Below are positions 1-15,660 of a stretch of DNA of 15,761 nucleotides, piece by piece. The translations under genes and the position numbers were made by a program. The notes under the pieces were generated by a model. That model saw only the letters and a program-made list of their open reading frames with translations. It did no database searches and was not told the DNA's origin. The stretch is from Actinomycetota bacterium (GTDB lineage: Bacteria; Desulfobacterota; Deferrimicrobia; Deferrimicrobiales; Deferrimicrobiaceae): contig JAENIX010000008.1 in assembly GCA_016844415.1 (NCBI GenBank), forward strand, positions 1 to 15,761, given 5' to 3'. The first letter of the stretch is position 1, and each line of letters opens with the position of its first letter.

Positions 1-406
1 CGGGCGGGAAGTGTTTCGGGTTCGATGTGATGATCGCTTTAGCCTTTCCCGCTATTGCGGCGGCGAAGAAAATATCGTCGGCAGGGTCAGGGGAGATCTC
101 GACGGAGTACCAAGGTTGGACCAGCACGCCGCCACGACGCAACGAGGCGATAAGATTGCCGGTATGGGCGGTCCGTACCCGGAGGCGATTGAGCACCTCA
201 TTGTACTCGTCGAGGATATCTTCGGTCAGGATGAGATCGAAGGAGCGCTTCTTGCGATCCAGCCATCTTTCGAGGAGAAGGCGAGAGGGATTATCCGATA
301 CGGCCAGCTCCTTCCGGGTGGGAGAGAAGAAGGCCTGGATCCCCCTCATGAGGACGCTCGTGTCCAGGACGTAGCGGTGGCGCTTACCTCGCCGTGATGG
401 TGACAA
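1..406 (-). CDS. PIN-domain toxin-like RNase, partial (3' end outside window)
   Basis: The minus frame entering at base 406 and running off the left edge encodes a PIN-domain protein resembling the COG1569 group of toxin-antitoxin RNases. Visible are the opening LDTSVL strand with Asp15, an acidic helix DEYNEVLNRL (about 66-75), and a late DPADD block (107-111) followed by a hydrophobic helix and IITSNPKHF. These match the Mg2+-binding acidic positions of PIN nucleases; the final acidic position reads Asn129 here. About 135 residues are present, so probably only 10-30 are missing. The chosen TTG start overlaps the end of the upstream MerR-like gene by 23 bases. The only nearby ATG (349) would remove the first catalytic Asp, so TTG is preferred. 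The expected role is cleavage of cytoplasmic RNA, held in check by the upstream protein. Family assignment is firm; RNA target and activity are inferred. Confidence 0.8.
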   Translation of the reverse strand, partial: MSPSRRGKRHRYVLDTSVLMRGIQAFFSPTRKELAVSDNPSRLLLERWLDRKKRSFDLILTEDILDEYNEVLNRLRVRTAHTGNLIASLRRGGVLVQPWYSVEISPDPADDIFFAAAIAGKAKAIITSNPKHFPP

Positions 407-974
407 CGGCCGTCTCGCCCTTTCCGGCGTGTGAACTGCGCCCTGATCGGACGTCGGATACGGCCTCGTCGATGTCCTCCTCGGTGATCCTTGCCTCCCG
501 CATCTCCCTGGCGATGGCATCCGCTGTCTCCCGGAACCGCTTCCTCCAATCGTCCTTTGGGCGTCCCCGGCGAATCGGAGCAACCTCTTCCTTTTCGGAC
601 TCGCAATGGCGGAGTAGGAGGAGAGGCTGCGACAGGTCGATCCGGATCGTTGCCGGAGCCATGACCTCGCCCCTGGTCGGGCGGAACCGAAGAATGAGCC
701 ATTTCTGTTTCCCGGTGATCCAGGCCGAGTAGTGCGGGCGCACGTTTTCGACGATCTTGGCGATCCGACGCGGAGAAAGTCCCAGTTCATGGAACGTGTG
801 GGCGAGGTAGACGTCGTAGACGGAGCGCTCGTCCAGCAACCTCAGGCTTCCCTTTCCACGTCCGGAAAGGCTGGCTTTGACGACGCCGGTCTCGAGAAAA
901 CGGCTCAGGTCTTTCTGGCGGACACCCCAACCGGCGAAGAGGTCGATGGCCTTGCCCAATTGGACTTGCAGCAT
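384..974 (-). CDS. MerR-like HTH protein, probable antitoxin of the PIN toxin
   Basis: This 196-residue protein has an N-terminal MerR-like winged-helix pattern. It runs from a short helix (WGVRQKDLSRFLE, about 16-28) through GVVKAS and a basic GRGKG wing to a second helix pair (about 48-76, HELGLSPRRIAKI). The C-terminal half is charged and ends with a helix (REARITEEDIDEAV, about 160-173) like the EED tail segments of other antitoxins. The ATG at 974 is preceded by a strong AAGGAGG nine bases away. The gene overlaps the downstream PIN gene, the usual arrangement of a toxin-antitoxin operon. A consensus promoter and a 24-bp dyad lie immediately upstream, which suggests autorepression. The HTH assignment is by pattern only. 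The antitoxin role is inferred from position, and a stand-alone regulator remains possible. Confidence 0.75.
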   Translation of the reverse strand: MLQVQLGKAIDLFAGWGVRQKDLSRFLETGVVKASLSGRGKGSLRLLDERSVYDVYLAHTFHELGLSPRRIAKIVENVRPHYSAWITGKQKWLILRFRPTRGEVMAPATIRIDLSQPLLLLRHCESEKEEVAPIRRGRPKDDWRKRFRETADAIAREMREARITEEDIDEAVSDVRSGRSSHAGKGETAVVTITAR

Positions 975-2183: not shown

Positions 2184-2594
2184 ATGACAACGAGCCTGTT
2201 CAAATGGAAAAATGATTTTTCTGTCGGCATCAAGGAATTGGACGATCAACACAGGAGTTTTTTTGAAATCCTTAACCGGTTGGGGGAGGCGGCAGGGAGG
2301 AATAAGGGTATCGAGGTCGTCGGCCTTGTGTTGCAAGAGCTAAACGAGTACAGCCGTCACCATTTTGCCGAAGAAGAAAACTGGCTTAGGGTCGTAGGGT
2401 TCCCCGGACTTCAATTTCAGAAAAAGCAGCATGAATTCTTCATCTCGCAGGTTACGGATTTACTGGACAAATATTCTAAAGGGGACGCCAACCTCCCGAT
2501 CAGCACGATGGAATTTTTGAGGGACTGGTTGCTGAGCCATATCCTGGAAAATGATAAAAAATACGGGACGTATATGCACGATGTTCGGGAGTAG
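2184..2594 (+). CDS. Bacteriohemerythrin (oxygen-binding di-iron protein)
   Basis: This 136-residue single-domain hemerythrin has the full ligand set: the DDQH segment (about 19-22), the YSRHHFAEEE segment (about 52-61) with two His and a bridging Glu, QKKQHEFF (about 76-83), and LLSHILENDKKY (about 111-122) with His and Asp. It should bind O2 at a non-heme di-iron site in the cytoplasm, for oxygen sensing, storage or delivery in a microaerophile or anaerobe. The ATG is preceded by AAAGGAG eight bases upstream. The gene stands alone between two copies of a direct repeat and ends in an intrinsic terminator, so it forms a self-contained unit. No fused signalling domain is present, and length is normal for the family. 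Confidence 0.93.
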   Translation: MTTSLFKWKNDFSVGIKELDDQHRSFFEILNRLGEAAGRNKGIEVVGLVLQELNEYSRHHFAEEENWLRVVGFPGLQFQKKQHEFFISQVTDLLDKYSKGDANLPISTMEFLRDWLLSHILENDKKYGTYMHDVRE

Positions 2595-2761: not shown

Positions 2762-2790
2762 TTCGATCGCTTTCACGCGATACATATAAT
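2762..2790 (+). promoter_or_regulatory. Candidate promoter of the PocR hybrid kinase
   Basis: A perfect TATAAT (2785-2790) with a poor -35 (TTCGAT, 2762-2767) 17 bases upstream. It lies 53 bases before the kinase ATG and after the terminator. The -10 is convincing, the -35 is not, so an activator may be needed. Confidence 0.4.
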
Positions 2791-2843
2791 TCGAGGCCGA
2801 TGTTGATTTATGCGCATCTGCGTGAGACATCTGGAGTGCAAAT

Positions 2844-5696
2844 ATGAAGCACCAAATCGAGGATCTACTGGATATTCCCCGGCTTCAGGCTGCTTTGGAC
2901 AGCCTTTACGCCTCGTCCAAAATCCCCTCCGCCATCATCGACAACGAAGGAAAAATCCACACCGGTTCCGGTTGGCAGGACGTCTGCACGAAATTCCATC
3001 GCGTCCACCCCGAGGCCCGGAAGCGGTGCATCGAGAGCGACATCTACATCACCGGCCACATCGGCGAGGCCAACCCCTCGATCACCTATAAATGCCCTCA
3101 CGGGCTGGTGGATTCGGCGACCCCGATCTTCATCGAGGGCGAACACATCGGGAACGTCTTCACGGGTCAACTGTTCCTTGAAGAGCCGGATCTGGATTAC
3201 TTCCGGTCGCAGGGAAGTGCTTACGGATTCGACGAAGAAAAATATATCGACGCGGTGAAGAAAGTCCCGGTCATCACGGGGCAGGCATTGCAGGAAAACT
3301 TGGCATTCGTAGCACACCTCACGGGAATGCTCGCGGAGATGGGGCTGAAGCGTGCGAGGGAAAAGGAGGCCGAGAAGCGGTTCAGGGAGAGTGAGGAACG
3401 GTACCGGGCGGTGGTGGAGGGACTGCCGGACGTCGTGATGCGCTTTGACCGCGACGGACGGCACCTGTTCGTATCCGATAACGTCAGCAGGGTGGTTGAC
3501 CTCCCGGCGGCGCAATTCATCGGCAAGACCCATCGCGAGCTTGGTTTTCCCGAAGCGCAGTTCCGGTTTTGGGAGGACGCCATCCTGGGTGTGTTCGACA
3601 GCGGCGCGCCTTACGAGACCGAGTTTACGTTAGAGGGCAGGCAAGGGCCGGTGATCTTCAACTGGCGGCTCGTGCCCGAGCGGGACGCACAGGGGATGGT
3701 CCAATCGGTGCTCTCTTTCAAGCGCGATATCACCGACCACCGCCGGGCGGAGGAGAAACTGCGCCAATCGGAGAAGAAGATCCTGGAATCTCAAAATCTC
3801 TTGCAGGCGGTAGTGGACGGGACGACAGACGCTGTCTACGTCAAGGATCTGCAGGGACGTTACCGTCTCTTCAACGCCGCGGCTTCGCGCTTCACGGGGA
3901 AGAGTTTCGCCGAGGTGATCGGAAACGACGACACCATCCTGTTCCCCGCCGATGAAGCCAGGACGGTCATGGAAGGCGACAGGGGCGTCATCGCCTCCGG
4001 GAAGACGTTGACATACGAGGAACATGTCACGACCGCGGAGGGAGAGAAGGTGACCTTCCTCTCGACGAAGGGGCCCATGGTCGACGAACACGGCAATGCC
4101 ACCGGGCTTTTCGGCATCGCCCGTGATATCACCGGGCAGAAGCGGGCGGAGGAGTCCATTCGGGAGAGCGAGGCGAAGTATCGCGGCTTGTTCGAGCACA
4201 TGCAGGAAGGATGCGCGTATTGCAGGATGATCTTCGAGAACGGCGATCCGATGGATTTTATTTATCTCTCCGTCAACACTGCGTTCGAGACTCTGACGGG
4301 GTTAAAGGATGTCGCCGGGAAGCGGGTTAGCGAGGTCATCCCGGGCATCCGATCGTCCGATCCCGCATTGTTCGAAACCTATGGTCGTGTGGCACGCACC
4401 GGCGAACCCGAAAAGGTCGAGATTTTCGTCGAAGCGTTGCAGCAGTGGTTCTTGATCTCCGTCTACTCCCCGGAACAGGAGTATTTCGTCGCCGTGTTCG
4501 ACGTCATCACCGACCGCAAGCGTGCCGAAGTCCAGAAGGAAAAGTTGCAGGCCCAGCTCCTGCAGGCGATGAAGATGGAGGCGGTGGGCCGCCTGGCGGG
4601 GGGCGTGGCGCACGACTTCAACAATCTCCTGACGGTGATCATCGGCAACGTGGCGTTGGCTCTGATGAAGCTTACCCCGTCCGATCCGGCCAAGGGCCTG
4701 CTCGACGAGGCGAACAAGGCCGCGGAGAGGGCGACCCGGCTGACGCAGCAGCTTCTTGCGTTCTCCCGCAAGCAGATCATCGAGCCGAAGGTCCAGGACA
4801 TCAACATCCTGATGGTCGATCTGAACAAGATGCTGATCCGCCTGATCGGGGAGAATATCGACCTGAAAACGATCCCCGGCGAGGACCTCTGGTTGGTGAA
4901 GGTCGACGCCGGTCAGTTCGAGCAGATCTTGGTCAACCTGGCGGTGAACGCCCGGGACGCGATGCCTGACGGCGGGAAGGTCGTCATCGAGACCTCGAAC
5001 GCGGAGCTGGACGACGACTACTGTTCCCGCCATCCCTACGTCAAGCCGGGAAGGTTCGTCGTGGTGGCCGTGAGCGACACGGGGCACGGCATGAGCGAGG
5101 AGGTCAAGGAGCATATTTTCGAGCCGTTCTTCACTACGAAAGCCAAAGGGAGCGGGACCGGCTTCGGCCTTGCGACGACCTACGGTGCGGTGAAGCAGGC
5201 AGGGGGCTCCATCGAAGTGTATTCAGAGGTCGGGATGGGGACGACCTTCAAGATCTACCTGCCGCGGATTGAAGGAGAAACCTCAAAGTTGGAGAGAGAC
5301 GACCGACCAAAGAAGCTCCTGGGCGGTACCGAGACAGTATTGCTCGTGGAGGACGAGAACATCGTGCGGGAGTTGGCCGTCCGGGTCCTCGATGAATTGG
5401 GATATAGGGTATTGCAGGCCGGAAACGGCGACACGGCGATCGCCCTGGCGATGAAATACGGGGAGCGGATCGACCTGCTGCTGACGGACGTTGTGATGCC
5501 GGGGATGAGCGGGCGTGAGGTGGCGAACCGGTTGACGCAAATCCATCCGGAGACGAGGGTGCTCTTCACCTCGGGGTACACGGATGACGCGATCGTGCAC
5601 CACGGCGTACTGGACGAGGGCGTGTCCTTCATCGGTAAGCCGTACACCCCGTCGGCGCTTGCAAGGAAGGTCCGGGAAGTACTCGGCAAGGCGTGA
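2844..5696 (+). CDS. Soluble hybrid histidine kinase PocR-PAS-PAS-PAS-HisKA-HATPase-REC
   Basis: This 950-residue protein has no membrane segment. Residues about 5-165 form a PocR-type ligand-binding domain with Cys48, Cys62 and Cys84. Three PAS domains follow (about 185-300, 315-435, 440-560), each ending in a DIT/VIT signature. The HisKA box VAHDFNN places the phospho-accepting His at 590. The ATPase has the N box near 698-705, DTGHG at 745-749 and a Gly-rich GSGTGFGLA stretch at 769-777. The C-terminal receiver has Glu836/Asp837, phospho-acceptor Asp882, Thr909 and Lys932. The HDFNN-type H box is typical of multi-PAS hybrid kinases. ATG is preceded by GGAG about nine bases upstream. It stands alone, convergent with the Yfi-like operon. 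PocR domains in other proteins bind small hydrocarbon derivatives such as propanediol; the ligand here is unknown. With a terminal receiver, phosphate probably passes to a separate phosphotransfer protein or regulator not seen here. Confidence 0.93.
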
Positions 5697-5764
5697 CGGG
5701 AGAGCAGTTCAGGAGCACGGTCCTTATTCGACTGTCAGGCACGAGCGCAACAGAGTCGTCCGCA

Positions 5765-7276
5765 TCAACCTTTCAACTTCTCGTAGACCTCCTCGAACCC
5801 GGACGCGTTCTCCTCGAAGGTCCTCAGCACCTCGGGATCGAAATGACCGGGCATCGTCCTGCCGTCGCCGACGGTAATGATTTTGTACGTCTTGTCATGA
5901 TCGAACGCCGGCTTGTACGACCGGGCGTTTCTCAATGCGTCGTACTGGTCGGCGATGTTGACCAGCCTCCCCTCGATGGGTATCTGTTCTCCCTTCAGGC
6001 CCTTCGGATACCCGGCACCGTCCCACCGCTCGTGGTGGGTCAGTGCGATGGCCTTCCCGATGCCGAGTTTCCGGTGTTCCCCGATGATCTTTGCCCCGTA
6101 GACCGCATGCTGCTTCATGGACTCCCATTCCTCGGCCGTCAATCCCCCGGATTTCTTCAGGATGCCGGGATGGATGTGGATCTTGCCCACGTCGTGAAGC
6201 GGAGCCTGCACGCGGATGTTCTCGATGAACTCCCTGCTTAATCCCATTTTCCCGGCAAGGAGGGCGCAATACTCGCCGACTCTCAGGATGTGGTTCCCCG
6301 TGTCCTCGTCGTTCGCCTCGGCGGCCCTCGCAAGGGCATAGACAGTGTACGCGAAGGCGTCGTCGACCTCCTTCAATTTCATCGCCAACGACCGCAGGAA
6401 GAGCGTATGCATGACGAGGCTGTTCACCACGGCCGTGTCGTAGAGGGAAACCTCCCTCCCGTAATTGAGCGCGAAGACGCAAAGGATGTCGCTTGCGTAG
6501 CAGACCAGGTTCCGGACATCGGTGCCGAGCCCCTTGAGTTTGACGGTAAACGGCCGAAACATCGGGTCGTGGTCCGGATCGTTGGAAAAGAAGATCGTAG
6601 AGGGTCCCCCGCCGGGGACGTCCGGCGCGAAATCCATGGCGACGGCGGCGCGCCGCACATCCCCTTTCCCTGCGTAAAGGAACCATTCGTGTCTCGTCGT
6701 CCCGCCCAGAAGGCGGACCACGATGCTCTGCGGCCCGCCCGAGCCGTTGTCGCAGCCCTGGAACAACACCTCCACGATCCCGTCGATCTTCGACATGAGG
6801 TCGAAATCCGCATCGTTGAATGTCCGGACGATCTTCTCCGAGTAGGAGTTCATCTCGATCATGTCGCTGTAGGCGTTCCGGAGCCGGTCGCCGAGGCTCT
6901 TCATCTTGAGGAGCATTTTCGTCCGGGCGATCACTTCCCCCTCGTCGAAGGGCTTCGACAGAAAATCGTCGGCCCCGGCCTCGATCCCGCGGATCCGGTC
7001 CTCCCGGGAGGTCAGGGCGGTGATGAGGACGACGGGCAGGTGCCTCGTCTCCTCGTTCTCCTTGATCTTCCGGCAGGCGTCGAACCCGTTCATCTTCGAC
7101 ATCATCACGTCCAGCAAAACGCAGTCGACCTTCTGCTCCCGGATCTTGCGGAGCCCTTCCTCCCCGTTTCCGGCGGTGAGAACTTCATACCCCATCGGCA
7201 GCAGGACCGCCTCGAGAAGCTTTAGATTCAGGATTTCGTCGTCCACGCAGAGAATCCGGGGTTTACGATCCGACAT
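5765..7276 (-). CDS. Response regulator with HD-GYP c-di-GMP phosphodiesterase (RpfG-like)
   Basis: This 503-residue protein has a receiver at about 7-123 (Asp12/Asp13, phospho-acceptor Asp56, Lys108). A middle region follows (about 130-295), then an HD-GYP domain (about 305-485). The catalytic HD is His361-Asp362 with GK following, then a HHERWDG stretch (414-420) and an intact GYP at 422-424, so c-di-GMP hydrolysis is expected. The middle region contains neither DNA-binding nor recognised PAS/GAF motifs and is longer than the usual short linker of RpfG proteins. ATG 7276 is chosen because AAAGGAG sits just upstream; the frame stays open further but its codons are the shadow of the preceding gene. 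The gene begins 17 bases after the receiver gene and is last in the five-gene operon. It is the only recognisable c-di-GMP enzyme in the operon and is the probable final output. Confidence 0.93.
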
Positions 7277-7293
7277 GGCTTCTCCTTTCGGCT

Positions 7294-7662
7294 TCACACC
7301 CGAAGGTGTTTTTTTACGATATCGGGCAACTCGACGAGGTCTATAGGTTTCTGGATGTAGTCGTCGAATCCCTCTCCGATCAGCCTCTCCCTGTCGCCAT
7401 GCATGGCCAGGGACGTCACGGCGAGGATCTTGATCTCCCTCGTTTCCGCGCGCATCCTCAGGTTTTTCATGGCGTCCACCCCGCTCATCACGGGCATCTG
7501 GATGTCCATCAGGATCAGCCCGGGGCAGTGCTCCACGGCCATGTCGATGCATTCGAGCCCGTCCCTGGCCTCCAGCACCTCGTACCCGAAATAGCTCAGG
7601 ACATCCCTCATCAGGACCAGATTCTTCTCGTTGTCCTCCACAACCAGGATCCGTGGGGCCAT
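7294..7662 (-). CDS. Single-domain response regulator (DivK/CheY-like receiver)
   Basis: This 122-residue stand-alone receiver has Glu9/Asp10, phospho-acceptor Asp53, Thr83 and Lys105-Pro106. The helix-4 region reads SLAMHGDRE, the AM-x-GD pattern seen in DivK-type and hybrid-kinase receivers. No output domain is present, so it should act by protein contact or as a phosphate relay. It starts four bases after the kinase stop, with GGAGG overlapping the end of the kinase gene. Its position between the kinase and the receiver-HD-GYP gene suggests that the same kinase feeds both receivers, or that this one tunes the kinase by feedback. Confidence 0.92.
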
Positions 7663-7666
7663 CCGC

Positions 7667-10441
7667 TCACCCTCCCTGCGCCGCGTCTCCGGGGGGCGGG
7701 CCCGGTGAAACGGGATTCCCGTGGAACGCCGCCAGAAGATTGTCCGCGTCCTCCCCGTGTTCCGGGTACACGACCGACGTCTGCGCGGCTTCGTAGCCGC
7801 GCCTGCGCAATATGTCCACGAGTCGCGCCGCCGTGTTTCCCAGCGCCGAGCCGGAGATTTCCATCAGGAGGACATAAAGGCAATCCGGCCGGTCGCCATG
7901 GCCGATGACTTCGTCTTTGCGCGTGTTCTCCAGGACGACCTCCCCGGCTTTCATCAGGAACTCGGGGCCGGCGCAGCCCCTGAATTCGAGCTGGAGGATT
8001 CCGAAACCGCTCCCTCTTTTCCGGTGATATTCCAGGACGTCGCGGACCTTTCCCCGGAACGCCTCGCTCTCAAGGACCAGGTTCTCCGGCCGTATCGAGC
8101 CGCCGAGGGCCGGCTCCGGTGCAGGGATGTCCTCCGGAAAGAGTTCAGGCCGACAAGGCAGCGTGAAGAAGAACCGGCTCCCTTTCCCCTCTTCGCTCTC
8201 GACCCAGATCCTGCCTCCGTGGAGCTCGACGAGCTTCTTCGTGAGCGCCAGCCCGAGCCCCGTTCCTTCGTACTTCTTCGTGTACGTCGATTCCAGCTGC
8301 GTGAACTCGGTGAACAGCTTCGCCATGTCCTCGGCCTTGATCCCGATCCCCGTATCCGAGACGCAGATACGGACGGCGTCGTCCTCCTTCGAAGCCGTCA
8401 GCGTGACGGATCCCCCTTCCGGCGTGAACTTGACGGCGTTGGACAGCAGGTTGAACAGGATCTGCTTCACTTTCCTCTCGTCCGCCTCGATCGTCTCTTC
8501 CACCCCGGGCCCGATCTCGACCGAGAGCCGGATGTCGTTCTTCAAGGCTCTCTCCGTAAGCATGGTCACCGACGCCTGGATCACGCCCTTCAGCGCGACC
8601 GGAGCCGCTTCCAGCGTCATTTTCCCGGCTTCCACCTTGGACAGATCCAGGATGTCGTTGATCAGCCCCAGCAGGTGCTTCCCGCTCTCCTCGATGTAGC
8701 GCACGTACTCGGACTGCTTCTCGTTGAGCTTCCCGTAGAACTCCTTCTTCAGGACCCCTGAAAAACCGATGACGGAGTTGAGCGGCGTCCGGAGCTCGTG
8801 CGACATGTTGGCGAGAAAATCCGACTTGGCGCGGTTGGCTGCCTCGGCGGCTTCCTTGGCCGCGCGAATCTCCTCGGTCGCGCGCCTGCTTTCGGTGATG
8901 TCCTCCTTGATCGCCACGAAGTGGGTGATCTCCCCTTTCGCGCTCCGGACGGGAGCGATGAGGGTGTGCTCCCAATAGGTTTCGCCGTTCTTTTTCCTGT
9001 TGTAGAATTCTCCCCGCCACAGATCCCCTGCGAGAACGGTCTTCCACAGGTTTTTGTAGAAATCGTCGCCATGCACCCCCGTTTTCAGGATCCGGGGATT
9101 TTGCCCGACGGCCTCGTCGAGCGTATATCCCGTCAACTCGACGAACCGGGGATTTACGTATTCGATCGTTCCGTCGCAGCTCGTGATGACGACGGAGACC
9201 GGGCTCTGCTCGACGGCGCGGGAAAGTTTCTGGAGCTGGCCCTCGATCTCCTTTCGCTTCGTGATGTCCCTCAGGACGCACGCGAACATCTGGCGACCGT
9301 GGATAAAGAATTCGTTGGCGGCCAGCTCGAGGGGAATCTTGCGGCCGTCCCTGTGGAGGCCGATCGCTTCGGTCCGGTACCCCGAATTCCTCGGCCCAGG
9401 GACCTTCAGGTACTTTTCCACGAACTCCCTGATCTGGTATTTGTGCTCGATGGGAGTCAGGATCGCGACGTTCTTGCCGGTCACTTCCGCCGAGGCGTAG
9501 CCGAAGATGTGCTCCGCCGCGGGGTTGAAGGAATCGATGACTCCGCTTCCGTCGATCGTCAGGATTCCGTCCCCTGCCGCGGACAGGATGATGCGGGTAC
9601 GCTCCTCGTGTTCCCCGAGCTCGGCGGTGCGCAAGGCGACTTTTTCCTCGAGCTCCTCCCGGTTCCGCCCGAGGTGCTCGTCCCGCAGCTGGATCTGCCC
9701 CAGCATCTCGTTGAAGCCTTTGATGAGGTCGCCGATCTCGTCGCCGCTCTCCCCGGCGACACGCACCGAGTAGTCCTTCTCCCTCGATATATCCCTCATC
9801 GCCTGCCCCAGGTGGAGGATCGGACCGGTGATCGTTCCCTGGAGCCTGGAAAACACGAGGTACACCATGGAAAAGGACCCGAGCATGAATACCGAGGTGA
9901 CGGCAAGAAACCAGGTCAGCCGGGCCCAGAGATCCTTCATGTTCGCCAGGAGTACCACCGTGGAGACCTTCTGGCCGTCCAGAAAGATCGGCACCGCGGC
10001 TACTACCCTGAAATTCCAGTTCCAGATCGTGTCGTTTTCCGCCGTCAGCCGGGACAGGACCAGGCGTCCTTTCCCCGCAGGACCGTCGCCTTCCTCCTTC
10101 TCCGGTCCCGGCGGGTCGGGGCCGGCGCCCCCTGCGGTGTACTTCGCGAACACCTCGCCGTCGTTGGTCAGGAGGTACGTGGCCACGATATACGGCTGGG
10201 CGCGCAGCGCCGACAGGGTCTCCGCCGCGGCCTTCGGGTCGTTGAACGTCACGGCCGCCGCCGTGTTGGTCCCCAGAATCTGCCCCAGCGCGGAGATTTC
10301 CTGGCGCAGCGTCATGCGGTACGAGAGCGCTTCGGTGATCGCGAACGCCAGGGAGGCCACGATCACGACCGCGCCGCTCGCCGCCATGACGATGGTCATG
10401 AGCTTGCGCTTGAGGGGCGCGTCGCGGAAGGCGCCGGTCAC
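7667..10441 (-). CDS. CHASE8-HAMP-PAS-PAS histidine kinase with C-terminal GGDEF-like remnant
   Basis: This 924-residue membrane sensor has TM1 at about 15-36, a periplasmic CHASE8-type sensor (about 37-175, with the AAVTFNDPKAAAETL pattern), TM2 at about 177-197 and HAMP at about 198-252. PAS domains lie at about 280-397 and 405-515. HisKA has NMSHELRTP with His548. The ATPase has N664/N668, DTGIG 696-700 and EGTGLGLAL 725-733. After the ATPase, residues about 785-905 resemble a diguanylate cyclase fold without the signature: RKDEVIGHG leads to DRPDCLYVLL where GGDEF would stand. The GTG start shares four bases (GTGA) with the end of the YfiR-like gene, implying translational coupling. The open frame extends far upstream, but only as a shadow of that gene. 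CHASE8 is the input domain of YfiN/TpbB cyclases, so the input looks borrowed from that system. There is no receiver in the protein; phosphate should go to the two downstream receivers. Confidence 0.92.
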   Translation of the reverse strand: MTGAFRDAPLKRKLMTIVMAASGAVVIVASLAFAITEALSYRMTLRQEISALGQILGTNTAAAVTFNDPKAAAETLSALRAQPYIVATYLLTNDGEVFAKYTAGGAGPDPPGPEKEEGDGPAGKGRLVLSRLTAENDTIWNWNFRVVAAVPIFLDGQKVSTVVLLANMKDLWARLTWFLAVTSVFMLGSFSMVYLVFSRLQGTITGPILHLGQAMRDISREKDYSVRVAGESGDEIGDLIKGFNEMLGQIQLRDEHLGRNREELEEKVALRTAELGEHEERTRIILSAAGDGILTIDGSGVIDSFNPAAEHIFGYASAEVTGKNVAILTPIEHKYQIREFVEKYLKVPGPRNSGYRTEAIGLHRDGRKIPLELAANEFFIHGRQMFACVLRDITKRKEIEGQLQKLSRAVEQSPVSVVITSCDGTIEYVNPRFVELTGYTLDEAVGQNPRILKTGVHGDDFYKNLWKTVLAGDLWRGEFYNRKKNGETYWEHTLIAPVRSAKGEITHFVAIKEDITESRRATEEIRAAKEAAEAANRAKSDFLANMSHELRTPLNSVIGFSGVLKKEFYGKLNEKQSEYVRYIEESGKHLLGLINDILDLSKVEAGKMTLEAAPVALKGVIQASVTMLTERALKNDIRLSVEIGPGVEETIEADERKVKQILFNLLSNAVKFTPEGGSVTLTASKEDDAVRICVSDTGIGIKAEDMAKLFTEFTQLESTYTKKYEGTGLGLALTKKLVELHGGRIWVESEEGKGSRFFFTLPCRPELFPEDIPAPEPALGGSIRPENLVLESEAFRGKVRDVLEYHRKRGSGFGILQLEFRGCAGPEFLMKAGEVVLENTRKDEVIGHGDRPDCLYVLLMEISGSALGNTAARLVDILRRRGYEAAQTSVVYPEHGEDADNLLAAFHGNPVSPGPPPGDAAQGG

Positions 10442-11037
10442 TTCCCCTCCCTTCGTCCCGGCCTGACGATCTTCGCCAGCCCGAGGAGCTTCGAGCTGAT
10501 CTGCAGGCGGGTCCGCTGGGCCGCCTCCATGTTGATCTCGATCCCGATCCGTCGCTCCTCGTTCACCAGGTTGATGGTTCCCCCGTCCCGGGCGAAACCG
10601 TCCACGTCGCCGACCGTCAGGACGTTCCAGTTTTTCGTCGCCTGCAGGATCTTCGGCAGGAGGGTCTTCTCCGACGCGCTGACGTAGAGGAGGTGGCACC
10701 GCTCCAGTTCCCCGAGATTCGCCGCGTACCGGACGACGATCGGCCTTCCGTTGGCGGTTTTTCCCTTCAGGGATTTGAGGGCGTCGCCGAACGGGTCCTC
10801 GCCGAACACAATAAAGACGATGGGGCTCGCGGGGCCCGCGAAGGCGTCGGCGGGCCACTCGACGAACTTGGCGAAGTTGTACAGGAAGGCGGCCTTGACC
10901 GCGTACTCCGGCGCCGGTTCCCCGCGGGCGAACGACGGCGCTCCCCCGGGAATCAGCATCGCGACCAGGACGATCCCGGCGGCGATTCTTGCGGCCCGGC
11001 CACGAGCCGGGGCACGGCTGGGTTTACGGTTCGTCAT
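10438..11037 (-). CDS. YfiR-family periplasmic protein (DUF4154)
   Basis: This 199-residue protein begins with a basic N-terminus and a hydrophobic signal segment (about 17-37), so it is exported. The mature part has the YfiR/DUF4154 pattern: YAVKAAFLYNFAKFVEWP (about 45-62), IVFGEDPFGDAL (about 75-86), CHLLYVS (about 114-120), and GFARDGGTINLV followed by an EINMEAAQR segment (about 146-173). In Pseudomonas, YfiR sits in the periplasm and represses YfiN through its CHASE8-type domain until redox state or YfiB releases it. Here the following gene is a CHASE8 kinase and shares four bases with this one, so the same periplasmic contact is likely but with a kinase as target. It starts nine bases after the receptor stop. 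Only one Cys (114) is evident, so the disulfide switch known in YfiR may not apply. Confidence 0.9.
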   Translation of the reverse strand: MTNRKPSRAPARGRAARIAAGIVLVAMLIPGGAPSFARGEPAPEYAVKAAFLYNFAKFVEWPADAFAGPASPIVFIVFGEDPFGDALKSLKGKTANGRPIVVRYAANLGELERCHLLYVSASEKTLLPKILQATKNWNVLTVGDVDGFARDGGTINLVNEERRIGIEINMEAAQRTRLQISSKLLGLAKIVRPGRREGK

Positions 11038-11046
11038 CCCCCGGTC

Positions 11047-13074
11047 CTAAAACCGATATGTGATCTTTGTCCGGAAACTCCGGCCATCCTGCGGAAGGAT
11101 GTCCTCGGGCACCTTGTTTCCCGTCGGGTCGCCGTACCGGTAGCCGAAGAGGTTGTAGACGCCGGCCGATCCGTCCAGCCCCTTGACCAGGTTCCGGCCG
11201 AACAGGGTCAGGTTGACCACGGAATAGGCCCGCGCGGTGTCGCCCAGGAGCGACGTCCGCTTGCTCACATACTGGGTTTCCCCGCCGGCGAAGACCTTTT
11301 CGGTCAATAGAGGGGCGATCAGGTTGAGCTTGGCCAGGTGCCGGGGCGAATTGATCAGGCTCTGGCCGAGTCCATCCGTGGTCTCCTGGTAGGTATAGCT
11401 GGCCCGGCCTTCCAGGCCGTTCCCCCAACGGCCGTTCAATTCCGTCTCCACCCCCACAGGGTCGGTTTTCTGGGTGATCAGGTCCGTAATCTTGTAGGAG
11501 TAGCCGGCGGCGAGAAGGCGGAGGTGATCCCCGATCGACTGCTCGATGACGCCCTCGACGGTCTCGATCTTCTCGGGGCCGAGGGCGGGATTCGCCTTCT
11601 GGGTAACCTCGCCGTCGGTGTAGAACATTTCGAACACGTTCGGGGCGCGGAACGCCTTTCCGTAAAGGAGCTTGAGTGTCGTCTTCGGCCGCGGATTGTA
11701 GATCAGGGCGACCCTCGGGTTGGTGGTCCCACCGAAGGTCGAGTACTGATCGTGGCGGATCCCAGCGTTCAGGATCAGCCCCTTTGCGATCTCGAATTCG
11801 TCCTGGAGATAAATCGCCCAGATCCTGGTGCTCCTCTTATCGTCGAGCCGGCTCGCGGACGGGTTTTCGTCGAAATTGCCCTGATCCTGCCGGAAGTAGT
11901 CCCGGTACTCCACCCCCACGGTAAGCCGGTGGGTCTCCAGCATCCTCCGCGTCAGTTTTGCTTCGGCCCCCCACCATGCGTTCCGGGTGTCGTCCTTGTT
12001 CACGAACAGGAACGGCGGGACCGGGTTGATCGCGTTATCCGAGAACACATAGTCCCCGCGGTAGCCGTACCAGTCGTAAAAGACCTTGGCGGCGATACTC
12101 GTCTTCTCATCGAAATTGCCGTCGTACTTGAGGTCCGCGTAATACCGGTCGTCGACCGTCCGGTTCCGCGGGTCGTTGAACACCGTGCCGTAGGAGCCGG
12201 TAGGGATCGTTTTCTCCCGGGAGATGTAGGCGGCCTGGAAGGTGAAGTCGCGGTAGGCGAAGGTGGAGAAGAAGCTCTGGAACTTGTCGCCGTCCCTCTT
12301 TTCCGCGATCCCGTTGTTGGTGGCGGGGTCGTTGAATTCCGGAAAGAAGAGGTTCTGTCCCTCGCTGCGGAATACGGTTCCGGAAAGGAGGACCTCCAGC
12401 CCGCTTCCGAACCGGTTACCGTACGTGGTCCGCCCCTTGAAGGTCCCGAAGCTGGCGGCCTCCCCCGAAACCTCGATGCCCTTCAGATCCTTTCCCCGCC
12501 TCGTGATGACGTTGATGACCCCGAAGAAGGCGTTGCTACCGTAGAGCGACGAGCTCGGTCCCCGGATGACCTCCACGCGGTCGATGAGGTCCACGTCGAG
12601 GATGAACTCCGTCCCCACGACCGCGGTGTCGTAGATCCCGTCGTTGATCCGGTGGCCGTCCACCAGGAGAAGCAGCCGGGTATTGAAATCCCCCGGCGGG
12701 GCAAATCCCCTGACACCGATGTAGTTGTAATTCCGGTCGTAGGTGGAGTAGAAGGACCGCAGGCTTTTCAGGATGTCCGCTAGGGTCCGGTACCCGAACT
12801 TCCGGATCTCTTCGGCCGTAACGACGCTCACCGAGGAAGGAGCCTCCGTCGCTTTCTGCTCGTATTTGGAGGCGCTGTAGACGGACACGTTCATCAGGGA
12901 CTCGAGGCTCATCTCCGTGAGGTCGTTGAACGCAAGCGCCGCCGGACCTCCCTCCGCGGCCGAAACATCGGCCGGCCCGAAGATGCAAAGGAATCCGATC
13001 GCCGCGCCCGCCAGGACCCGCCCCGCCGAACTGCCCGGGCGCCCGGGAAAGCGGCGCGCCTTAGAAATCGCCAT
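11047..13074 (-). CDS. TonB-dependent outer-membrane receptor
   Basis: This 675-residue protein has a signal peptide (about 1-40, hydrophobic core about 19-33, Ala-Ala before the likely cut), then a plug domain (about 50-195). The plug shows YSASKYEQKATEAPSS (66-81), VTAEEI, a GVRGF strand, LLLVDGHR, VEVIRGPSSSLYGSNAF and VINVITRRG. A beta-barrel follows, ending in Phe (KITYRF), the C-terminal signal for outer-membrane assembly. The ATG is preceded by AGGAG seven bases upstream. There is no extra N-terminal signalling domain of the FecA/FpvA kind, so any signal to the cell would pass through the periplasmic YfiR-like protein encoded next. The substrate cannot be read from the sequence. It is first in the operon, and no cobalamin or c-di-GMP riboswitch was recognised in the 170-base leader. 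Confidence 0.95.
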   Translation of the reverse strand: MAISKARRFPGRPGSSAGRVLAGAAIGFLCIFGPADVSAAEGGPAALAFNDLTEMSLESLMNVSVYSASKYEQKATEAPSSVSVVTAEEIRKFGYRTLADILKSLRSFYSTYDRNYNYIGVRGFAPPGDFNTRLLLLVDGHRINDGIYDTAVVGTEFILDVDLIDRVEVIRGPSSSLYGSNAFFGVINVITRRGKDLKGIEVSGEAASFGTFKGRTTYGNRFGSGLEVLLSGTVFRSEGQNLFFPEFNDPATNNGIAEKRDGDKFQSFFSTFAYRDFTFQAAYISREKTIPTGSYGTVFNDPRNRTVDDRYYADLKYDGNFDEKTSIAAKVFYDWYGYRGDYVFSDNAINPVPPFLFVNKDDTRNAWWGAEAKLTRRMLETHRLTVGVEYRDYFRQDQGNFDENPSASRLDDKRSTRIWAIYLQDEFEIAKGLILNAGIRHDQYSTFGGTTNPRVALIYNPRPKTTLKLLYGKAFRAPNVFEMFYTDGEVTQKANPALGPEKIETVEGVIEQSIGDHLRLLAAGYSYKITDLITQKTDPVGVETELNGRWGNGLEGRASYTYQETTDGLGQSLINSPRHLAKLNLIAPLLTEKVFAGGETQYVSKRTSLLGDTARAYSVVNLTLFGRNLVKGLDGSAGVYNLFGYRYGDPTGNKVPEDILPQDGRSFRTKITYRF

Positions 13075-13727: not shown

Positions 13728-14045
13728 ATGAGGAAAAAAATGCCGGCCAGGACGCACCGCCAGATGGTCGAGGCGTGGAAGAAGGATCCCGAATTCAAGG
13801 GCGCGTTTGACGAGACGGAAACGGAGTTCGCCCTGTTGCGCGAGCTGCTCGCAGCCCGAAGGAAGGCGGGTATGACGCAGGCCGGCGTGGCGGCAAAGAT
13901 GGGAACCAGACCCACCGCCGTCACCCGGTTGGAGACGGCCCTCTCTGCCAACAGGCATTCCCCCACGCTGGCCACGTTAAAGAAGTACGCCCGGGCCGTG
14001 GGGTGCAAGCTGGAAGTGCACCTCGTCCCGTCCAAGGCCAGGTGA
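13728..14045 (+). CDS. XRE-family HTH antitoxin-like regulator (HigA-like)
   Basis: This 105-residue protein has an N-terminal helical arm (about 8-35) and an XRE helix-turn-helix (about 36-75: LLAARRKAGMTQAGVAAKMG, then PTAVTRLE). A short tail ends in GCKLEVHLVPS, the strand often seen at the end of HigA-type antitoxins. Two starts compete: ATG 13728 with GAGG ten bases upstream, and ATG 13740 with TGAGGA five bases upstream; the second has the better ribosome site and removes only four residues. HigA genes normally follow a RelE/HigB-type toxin gene. None is present upstream (13558-13727 holds only the promoter region), so this one is an orphan or has changed partner. A Fic gene starts 46 bases downstream. 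Self-regulation through the 13661-13678 palindrome is likely. Confidence 0.85.
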   Translation: MRKKMPARTHRQMVEAWKKDPEFKGAFDETETEFALLRELLAARRKAGMTQAGVAAKMGTRPTAVTRLETALSANRHSPTLATLKKYARAVGCKLEVHLVPSKAR

Positions 14046-14091: not shown

Positions 14092-14713
14092 TTGAAAAAG
14101 GGGCGTCGCTATGAGGAGACGGGGTTCATCGAAGGCCAGCACGAGCCCGGATCTCGTCGTCGCGTCCTTCGGAACCTCCTCGGTATCAAGAAAAAACGCG
14201 AGATTGAACGTGTCGAGTTGCGGGAGCAGGTTCGCGCGACAGAGGAACTGATCGATACCTACAGCCCCGACCATCGTTTCACATCGGACGATATTCGCAG
14301 GATCCACCGGATATGGTTTGCCCCTGTCTACGCATGGGCCGGGGAGTATCGGAAGGTCAATATGACCAAAGGCGGATTCACCTTTGCCGCTGCCGGTCAG
14401 ATTCCACGCCTGATGGAAATACACTCCATGCCGGGGGAAAAGCACCGAGGAGATTGTCCACGCCCTCGCCGTCGTGCATACGGAGTTGGTCCTTATCCAT
14501 CCGTTCCGGGAAGGGAACGGACGGGTAGCCCGAATGCTGGCAACGCTCATGGGGTTGCAGGCCGGGCTTCCGGCACTGGATTTCTCAGAAATCAGGGGAC
14601 GAAGGCGGAAGGATTTTTTCGCGGCTGTTCAGGCCGGGGTCGCGCGCGACTACCACCCTATGGAGAAGATCTTTACCGCCGTGATCCGGAGGACTTCTCG
14701 TAAACGTGCTTGA
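14092..14713 (+). pseudogene. Fic-domain protein (AMP-transferase type), frame disrupted
   Basis: A TTG start with GGAGG six bases upstream gives the N-terminus YEETGFIEGQHEPGSR and RRVLRNLLGIKKKREI, the opening of a well-known Fic group. Then come HRFTSDDIRRIHRIWF, YAWAGEYRKVN and GGFTFAAAGQIPRLM. Frame one ends its similarity at base 14415. The continuation is in the +1 frame from 14414: KYTPCRGKSTEEIVHALAVV, then the intact Fic motif HPFREGNGRVAR (14498-14533) and RDYHPMEKIF to a TGA at 14713. In relatives I recall about a dozen residues between RLM and the TPC segment. An out-of-frame deletion of some tens of bases therefore fits better than a single-base error. No (S/T)xxxE(G/N) inhibitory motif is seen within the protein. 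Fic enzymes attach AMP to target proteins and many act as toxins; this copy should be inactive unless the frame is restored. Confidence 0.8.
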
Positions 14714-15081: not shown

Positions 15082-15579
15082 TTACGGAACCTGCCCGGAC
15101 AGCCCCTCGTCGCGGGCCAGGTCCGCTTCCGTGCCACGGGTGAGGGCGAGCAGTTCGTCGGGGGTGGTCACGAACATGTTGTTCGTCTCCCCCGCGGCGG
15201 GGTAGATCGTTTCGAACCGGCGCAGGGAGCGGTCGATGTAGATCGGTACCCCGTCGGGCAGCGCCACCGGAGAAACGGCGCCGACGGCGAACCCCGTGCG
15301 CGCGACCACGTCGTCCGGCCCCGCCAGCCGCACCCTCTTCCCGTATCCCAGCGCGCGGACCTTCCTCGTGTCCACCCGGCGATCTCCGGAGATCACGACC
15401 ACGATCGCCGTTTCATCGGACAGCAGCAGGATCGTCTTCGCGATCTGGCCCACCTGGACGCCGAGAGACCGGGCGGCAAGCTCCGAGTTGTGGGTCGACT
15501 CCCCGAAGCGGTGGATCTCCTTCGGGACGCCCGCGGACTCGAAGAACGCCCGCACCTCGTTCTCGCCGCGTGTCCGCAT
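15082..15579 (-). CDS. YbaK/EbsC-family aminoacyl-tRNA deacylase-like protein
   Basis: This 165-residue YbaK-fold protein has the hallmarks of the family: an N-terminal helix, STHNSELAARSLGV (28-41), the conserved Lys in GQIAKTILL (Lys48), VVVISGDRRVD (60-70), GAVSPVALP (100-108) with the GxVSP loop, a YIDRSL strand, and YPAAGETNNMF (126-136). Members hydrolyse mischarged aminoacyl-tRNA in trans in the cytoplasm; the substrate of this subgroup is not decided by sequence. ATG 15579 is chosen over ATG 15606 because a TATAAT -10 box (15605-15610) covers the latter. A G-rich run just before 15579 serves as a weak ribosome site. It appears monocistronic, with a dispersed repeat just past its stop codon. 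Confidence 0.88.
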   Translation of the reverse strand: MRTRGENEVRAFFESAGVPKEIHRFGESTHNSELAARSLGVQVGQIAKTILLLSDETAIVVVISGDRRVDTRKVRALGYGKRVRLAGPDDVVARTGFAVGAVSPVALPDGVPIYIDRSLRRFETIYPAAGETNNMFVTTPDELLALTRGTEADLARDEGLSGQVP

Positions 15580-15604
15580 CGCCCCCCCCGAAAACGTTCC
15601 CGCC

Positions 15605-15610
15605 ATTATA
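15605..15610 (-). promoter_or_regulatory. TATAAT -10 box of the YbaK-type gene
   Basis: A perfect TATAAT on the minus strand, 25 bases before the chosen ATG. No good -35 is visible at 16-18 bases. It decides against the longer reading that starts at 15606. Confidence 0.45.
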
Positions 15611-15660
15611 GCCGGGGCGCGCATGCCGGGATCGTCGTAAAATGGGGCGACAAGGCAAAA

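Follow-up and report, generated by a model that had tools for sequence, protein, structure and literature searches.

The window of this study, a stretch of 15,761 nucleotides from contig JAENIX010000008.1 analysed at its full length, comes from a draft genome of ~1.5 Mb that is 76% complete and has a G+C content of 60%. On its minus strand it carries a cassette of five genes, in which a TonB-dependent receptor, a YfiR-like periplasmic protein and a CHASE8 histidine kinase are followed by a free receiver and by a receiver protein with an HD-GYP domain. Here we describe this cassette, compare its parts with those of other genomes and discuss the signalling it may perform. Its genes and features are the following.

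11047..13074, minus strand: TonB-dependent receptor, 675 amino acids (Pfam barrel 1.5e-39, Plug 3.3e-22)
12865..12924, minus strand: receptor segment ahead of the plug, DLTEMSLESLMNVSVYSASK (receptor residues 51-70; matrix score 38.6)
10438..11037, minus strand: YfiR-like periplasmic protein, 199 amino acids, with a single cysteine (DUF4154, PF13689, 1.9e-47)
7667..10441, minus strand: CHASE8-HAMP-PAS-PAS-HisKA-HATPase_c kinase, 924 amino acids, with His548 (Pfam)
9950..10318, minus strand: CHASE8 periplasmic domain, kinase residues 42-164 (PF17152, 5.1e-16)
7670..8152, minus strand: degenerate GGDEF-fold domain with the signature lost, kinase residues 764-924 (hhalign, AlphaFold2, Foldseek)
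7294..7662, minus strand: stand-alone receiver, 122 amino acids, with Asp53 (Response_reg 6e-24)
5765..7276, minus strand: receiver-GAF-HD-GYP response regulator, 503 amino acids, with Asp56 (Response_reg 2.5e-29, HD_5 2.6e-26)
6341..6904, minus strand: GAF-like domain between receiver and HD-GYP, residues 125-312 (AlphaFold2, Foldseek)

Pfam searches with all five products bore out the parts and the gene order named in a first-pass annotation, which had been made from the sequence alone, and the coordinates agree with the single strand and the junctions of +9, -4, +4 and +17 bases given there. The GTG start of the kinase gene overlaps the YfiR stop. Shine-Dalgarno-like purine runs lie ahead of four of the five starts, with a weaker one ahead of YfiR, and a promoter and terminator scan of the locus gave nothing exceeding shuffled sequences. 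In the kinase, CHASE8 and HAMP score above the Pfam cut-offs, and two hydrophobic stretches (13-42 and 175-194) are present. Two of the domains listed above had been missed in the earlier reading, namely the GGDEF-fold tail of the kinase and the GAF-like middle of the HD-GYP protein.

Relatives were collected by a profile scan of genome contigs with 30 aligned YfiR relatives; the resulting 79 named loci represent the best 80 of 333 matches and are biased to close relatives. A TonB receptor lies within 5 kb of YfiR in 70 of the 79, and receptor and CHASE8 kinase are both present in 59, which cover 14 phyla by NCBI ranks plus two loci without phylum assignment. The closest named locus, L013 (from a 'Deltaproteobacteria bacterium' metagenome-assembled genome), has the same layout as G018, a member of the window's family. 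Since the named set was selected by similarity, whole-genome samples were drawn from four phyla, each sample including its centre genome. PF13689 was found in 50/200 genomes of the phylum of Aromatoleum, in 25/198 of the window's phylum (own genome counted), in 24/119 of the phylum of L058 (titled Acidobacteria) and in 16/118 of the phylum of L089 (titled Bacteroidetes). From the matches in these samples, 136 regions were used (60/71, 26/33, 29/36 and 21/22, respectively); those left out were weak or partial matches, the window itself and matches present in other sets. Domain calls came from profiles built for this analysis, with ten proteins checked against Pfam and eight against NCBIfam, and contig edges conceal some neighbour genes.

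In the 136 sampled regions the outer-membrane partner within 5 kb is a TonB receptor in 114 cases and an OmpA-like protein in three; none was seen in 18, and one region ends at a contig edge. The effector is a CHASE8 kinase in 102 regions (four with a split frame), a CHASE8-GGDEF protein in seven, a YfiR-kinase fusion in four and a kinase without CHASE8 match in two, while in 21 it is edge-cut or none was recognised. The OmpA profile was built from four seeds, which makes 3/136 a lower bound, and the seven cyclase effectors bear independently on the same point. Over all sets the receptor is mostly co-directional with YfiR and upstream of it (154/191). Chance adjacency can be ruled out: with 108 TonB-receptor plugs in 20 sampled genomes (~82 Mb) the receptor density is ~1.3 per Mb, and a receptor would be expected within 5 kb of a random point in ~1% of cases, versus the 114/136 observed. 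Given the counts for receptors and CHASE8 kinases, a receptor and a kinase are the usual partners of YfiR in these samples, and the YfiB/cyclase arrangement is the exception. The first-pass view of the locus as a rewired classical YfiBNR pathway is therefore not supported, as the receptor/kinase form is the commoner one; textbook YfiBNR looks like a rarer relative of the receptor-YfiR-kinase core. In a quick tree of 218 YfiR domains (unrooted, without bootstrap) a branch with a Shimodaira-Hasegawa-like approximate likelihood ratio (SH-aLRT) support of 92 separates the three OmpA-cyclase rows from all others, and at least six changes between cyclase and kinase effectors are needed on the same tree; the root, and hence which form came first, is not given by it.

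The check for conserved neighbourhoods that had accompanied the idea of a five-gene pathway thus has a divided outcome: the three-gene core recurs across the phyla counted above, whereas the five-gene set was not seen in the fetched relatives, and we reject a five-gene unit as a conserved whole. At E <= 0.001 the window YfiR has 3451 relatives; those listed, 120 in number, go by the names hypothetical protein, DUF4154, YfiR/HmsC-like or YfiR family. Within the window's family the cassette YfiR is patchy (5/23 other genomes, 0/3 of the same genus; some genomes are incomplete), and the readable kinases at these cassettes carry receivers. Other layouts occur as well. Two tandem YfiR genes stand ahead of a CHASE8 kinase in L035 and L070, with no TonB receptor found nearby, and one Pseudomonadota genome (G210) holds seven YfiR matches (L173, L179-L181, L185, L186, L220), several of them directly beside a TonB receptor and without a recognised CHASE8 effector.

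YfiR and CHASE8 diverge in concert. Across 117 loci with all domains well covered (26 loci dropped for coverage, near-copies removed), YfiR and CHASE8 distances correlate with r 0.76, and with a partial value of 0.72 given kinase core and receptor, whereas r is 0.26 for CHASE8 and the kinase core on its own chain. The two correlations are 0.78 and 0.48 in the phylum samples only (71 loci) and 0.54 and 0.17 in the named loci only (45), and 0/500 Mantel permutations matched (140 loci, run without the coverage filter). The difference between 0.76 and 0.26 suggests that YfiR and CHASE8 act as a unit to which different outputs are joined. Moreover, in four natural fusions (L289, L290, L291 and L220; two of them, L289 and L220, checked with Pfam) an E-, Q- and K-rich linker of ~140-155 residues and a single hydrophobic stretch join YfiR to a kinase, with no CHASE8 match. 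The four are set apart by one branch of the YfiR tree (support 96), and a TonB receptor lies directly ahead of three of them (L289, L290 and L291, in the L089 phylum sample). If helical, the linker would measure ~200 Angstrom, which is close to the depth of the periplasm. Correlated divergence and natural fusions together support the pairing of YfiR with CHASE8 that had been proposed at first pass, and we hold this partnership with considerable confidence.

The window receptor has no STN domain, Pfam giving only Plug and barrel. Between signal peptide and plug, YfiR-linked receptors share a DLTxLSLEELMN-type segment (consensus DLTELSLEELMNVEVTSVSK); at its place, unlinked receptors of the sampled genomes mostly have a VVTATR-like TonB box. 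With a segment matrix trained on 58 usable named loci and a threshold of 8, 106/116 linked receptors (other than the training loci) and 5/58 unlinked receptors are positive, in a test that is not fully independent because of overlap between named and sampled loci (L161 with L063, L223 with L018, L226 and L228 with the genome of L071, L092 with L013). At a threshold of 12 the numbers are 93/116 and 4/58. All three receptors beside fusions pass (10.0, 29.5 and 15.9), as does that of the window. An earlier cross-validated version had yielded, at >=8, 169/174 linked, 3/19 unlinked and 14/174 shuffled positives. The unlinked receptors stem from 20 Pseudomonadota genomes only; 59 were picked of the 108 plugs and 58 scored, those left out being mostly from G210 and G227, and one pick (L335) lies near a weak PF13689 match. 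The prediction that genomes with a receptor-less YfiR cluster hold an orphan segment-bearing receptor held in part. Of the five unlinked positives, three come from genomes in which a YfiR locus has no receptor within 5 kb (L332 in G145, L310 in G122, L339 in G210), and the same is not true of L358 in G221 and L367 in G142; in G245 and G261 a segment variant (L317, L321) passes the earlier cross-validated version and fails the final matrix.

From these sequences the segment may be read as a YfiR docking site or as a clade marker. In P. aeruginosa, according to a section of PMC4655355, Met59 of YfiB inserts in a hydrophobic YfiR pocket formed by Ala164, Ile169, Val176, Val180 and Leu181 over Phe151. 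The equivalents in the window YfiR, namely Ile168, Ala173, Ile180, Leu184, Leu185 and Ile155, are all hydrophobic in an alignment that is weak (E ~0.4) and gapless in this part. Our hypothesis is that the Leu-Met pair of the receptor fills this pocket.

On the cytoplasmic side, the 161-residue C-terminal domain of the kinase (residues 764-924) has no Pfam match, and no GGDEF match, as of an active cyclase, was found by Pfam anywhere in the kinase. Against GGDEF profiles hhalign gave E 2.3e-4 over 131 columns, yet a probability of only 20%. The AlphaFold2 model of the tail (mean predicted local distance difference test, pLDDT, 71.7) retrieved with Foldseek against the PDB 50 listed matches, 49 of which are GGDEF or cyclase proteins, WspR and ImcA among them (best E 2.5e-5). 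Rank 7 is 7a7e, the cyclase domain of P. aeruginosa YfiN, and the sole other protein is NikR at rank 44. The GGDEF signature is absent (letters in its place: GHGDRPDCLYVLL), and with this loss the tail would be expected to make no cyclic di-GMP (c-di-GMP). The tail domain was found in 18 proteins besides the window's own, all kinases and 17 of them listed with CHASE8, by a search sensitive only to proteins of similar length sharing words. In the first-pass annotation a kinase simply takes the place of the cyclase; we reject such a clean exchange as unsupported, since a degenerate GGDEF-fold domain persists (hhalign, AlphaFold2, Foldseek).

The phospho-acceptor residues are intact in the kinase (His548), the free receiver (Asp53) and the HD-GYP protein (Asp56), and the kinase has no receiver domain of its own by Pfam. 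The GAF-like middle domain of the HD-GYP protein (AlphaFold2 pLDDT 82.5) finds PDE6 (E 6.9e-5) and other GAF proteins as its best Foldseek matches. The HD, HHE and GYP motifs and the metal-site residues are present; D325, H329, H361, D362, K365, H390, H414, H415, Y423, P424 and D443 are invariant across 58 aligned HD-GYP rows. The best solved relative, 4mcw (1.3e-45), has Glu where D325 stands. With its catalytic residues intact, the protein is predicted to be a c-di-GMP hydrolase, as had been supposed.

Same-strand c-di-GMP enzymes occur within 6 kb in 21/79 named loci and in 16/60, 6/26, 3/29 and 0/21 of the sampled ones, and HD-GYP itself in 5/79 and in 1/60, 2/26, 1/29 and 0/21; all these counts are lower bounds because of contig edges. 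Among 196 CHASE8 frames, 112 are kinases with one to three receivers and 61 are kinases without a receiver. With receivers so often fused and HD-GYP rare, the window's combination of a receiver-less kinase bearing a dead GGDEF tail, a free receiver and a receiver-GAF-HD-GYP protein is a local variant, and its HD-GYP output is lineage-specific. Neither this tail of two receiver genes nor a close relative of the free receiver was seen among the fetched loci. The longest contigs of HD-GYP relatives P0146, P0147, P0152 and P0153 are equal in size, pairwise, to those of kinase relatives P0009, P0018, P0015 and P0024; the four pairs would then share the same contigs, and the window design would recur at least in part in its kin. 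Separately, the L220 fusion gene (4045-6687, minus strand) encodes YfiR, linker, transmembrane stretch, kinase and receiver and is followed by a receiver-HD-GYP gene (2765-3817, minus strand), which is the window's output in quite a different build.

We interpret the cassette as a trans-envelope sensory phosphorelay fed by the TonB-dependent receptor, in which receptor, YfiR and CHASE8 kinase form a relay with HD-GYP output. This reading, which we consider probable, rests on the conserved core, the YfiR-CHASE8 correlation, the fusions, the receptor segment, the intact residues and the four equal-sized contig pairs. A loaded or TonB-engaged receptor would change the exposure of its mature N-terminus, which bears the SLEELM-type segment ahead of the plug; periplasmic YfiR would read this state and, in a well-supported step, pass it to the CHASE8 domain of the inner-membrane kinase. 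The kinase would then phosphorylate the receiver-GAF-HD-GYP protein at its receiver, which would alter c-di-GMP breakdown, as adjacency and intact residues suggest. The free receiver is probably a shuttle or phosphate sink, like the kinase-fused receivers of many relatives, and the GGDEF-fold tail may bind nucleotide as feedback.

Several observations weigh against this interpretation. Receptor and YfiR distances are weakly correlated (0.31, partial 0.12; 117 loci), so that direct contact is not shown by correlation, and direct co-variation of the two was discarded as an argument. Linked receptors L268, L270 and L271 have no segment, and the segment could mark a clade instead of a docking site. 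In G205 the three plugs that were scored include no orphan receptor with the segment; a fourth plug (L331) escaped the profile. Eighteen of the 136 sampled regions show no outer-membrane partner, and few cassettes include HD-GYP itself. One alternative takes YfiR and the CHASE8 kinase as a self-contained envelope or redox stress sensor, with the TonB receptor only a regulated target or an operon passenger. Weak receptor-YfiR co-divergence speaks for it, some CHASE8-kinase regions have no receptor within 5 kb (e.g. L162, L166, L174), and part of the text of PMC4655355 discusses classical YfiR as a cysteine-dependent redox sensor. Against it, a receptor adjoins YfiR in 114/136 regions and has been kept beside three YfiR-kinase fusions of the L089 phylum sample, linked receptors have the segment in common, and the window YfiR, with its lone cysteine, lacks a conserved pair. 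We consider the stress sensor unlikely and the coupling of receptor to YfiR somewhat better than an even bet.

That the receiver-GAF-HD-GYP gene is a mere neighbour serving another kinase, e.g. the convergent PocR hybrid kinase (2844-5696), is quite improbable: the HD-GYP family is indeed widespread (relatives listed at 50-59% identity include Nitrospirota and Nitrospinota proteins) and a hybrid kinase and a receiver-HD-GYP gene adjoin each other upstream of the cassette in L013, but in the window the gene shares the strand and the +4 and +17 junctions, the CHASE8 kinase lacks a receiver of its own, kinase and HD-GYP relatives lie on equal-sized contigs in four cases, and the PocR kinase is on the opposite strand with its own receiver. 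The step from kinase to HD-GYP protein within the proposed phosphorelay we regard as likely.

A broader proposal can be offered tentatively, as one we hold slightly less probable than its negation. The cassette could exemplify a third general route of TonB-receptor signalling across the envelope, present in at least 14 phyla, in which an N-terminal segment (consensus DLTELSLEELMN) replaces STN and docks YfiR, and YfiR replaces FecR and drives a CHASE8 kinase, with outputs freely exchanged. YfiBNR would then be a minor offshoot, where an OmpA-like lipoprotein has assumed the docking role of the receptor (with Met59 in the YfiR pocket that the receptor would use) and a cyclase has supplanted the kinase. 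If true, the large YfiR/DUF4154 family would gain a role, YfiBNR, a model from one pathogen, would be one corner of a broad receptor-to-kinase system, and signalling by TonB receptors without STN would become testable with one short segment. Hydrocarbon sensing at the outer membrane (TOL_0244, OmpS) would also gain a candidate path by which to reach the cytoplasm and evoke a response there.

The remaining genes of the window are of various kinds. The convergent hybrid kinase (2844-5696, plus strand) has an N-terminal PocR sensory domain, PAS domains, HisKA, HATPase and a receiver, and is CckA-like by NCBIfam score, below the cut-offs. Behind the upstream end of the cassette, an HTH_3 protein (13728-14045, plus strand) and a protein with a short Fic/DOC match barely above cut-off (14092-14703, plus strand) stand in tandem, perhaps as a pair of toxin-antitoxin type. 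A YbaK-type tRNA-editing domain protein (15082-15624, minus strand), a hemerythrin-domain protein (2184-2594, plus strand) and a PIN-domain protein cut by the window end (2-790, minus strand) complete the set.

Among known systems, FecA-FecR-FecI comprises an outer-membrane TonB receptor with an STN domain, FecR and a sigma factor. The proposed likeness is an outer-membrane TonB receptor that signals inwards; the window differs in that its receptor lacks STN and that no FecR or sigma factor is present among the 14 window open reading frames scanned with Pfam, in line with the first-pass statement that no FecR-type anti-sigma factor is involved.

The receptor-YfiR-kinase association itself is already noticed by NCBI curators in three NCBIfam models, the names of which imply the same three-gene logic; in openly licensed PMC full texts we found no description of a TonB-YfiR-kinase system. 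The window YfiR scores 154.6 bits against NF053591 (TOL_0243 family YfiR-like periplasmic protein), above the cut-off of 125. Its receptor is far below that of NF053590 (TOL_0244 family TonB-dependent receptor; 139 bits, cut-off 645), and its kinase just below that of NF053592 ('sensor histidine kinase, YfiR-like protein-associated'; 175.5 bits, cut-off 194) with nearly the whole model matched; the receiver and HD-GYP tail lies outside the models. Linked receptors L163 and L281 are above the TOL_0244 cut-off and L229 is below it. In the portions of the sources consulted, TOL_0244 of Thalassolituus oleivorans rises sevenfold on n-C28 relative to Tween 80 and shares 40.3% similarity with OmpS, an alkane sensor (PMC6304351), and OmpS of Alcanivorax dieselolei is reported as an alkane sensor (PMC9788540, PMC5174103). 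Both are thus TonB receptors tied to alkanes, whereas the window receptor falls outside the TOL_0244 family by its cut-off, and with a score so far under it we rejected an alkane ligand.

YfiBNR (YfiB, YfiN/TpbB and YfiR of P. aeruginosa and E. coli) differs from the window in its OmpA-like lipoprotein YfiB in place of the TonB receptor, no OmpA-type (YfiB-like) protein being found among the same 14 open reading frames, and in a cyclase in place of the histidine kinase with predicted hydrolase output. According to the relevant part of PMC4655355 its YfiR has two conserved cysteine pairs, whereas the window YfiR has only one cysteine; with 27 bits against NF053586 (classical YfiR, cut-off 85) the latter belongs to the other NCBIfam YfiR family. 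In both systems, a DUF4154 periplasmic protein is paired with a CHASE8-HAMP inner-membrane protein, the output concerns c-di-GMP and, as far as the weak alignment goes (E ~0.4), the hydrophobic pocket positions of YfiR are kept.

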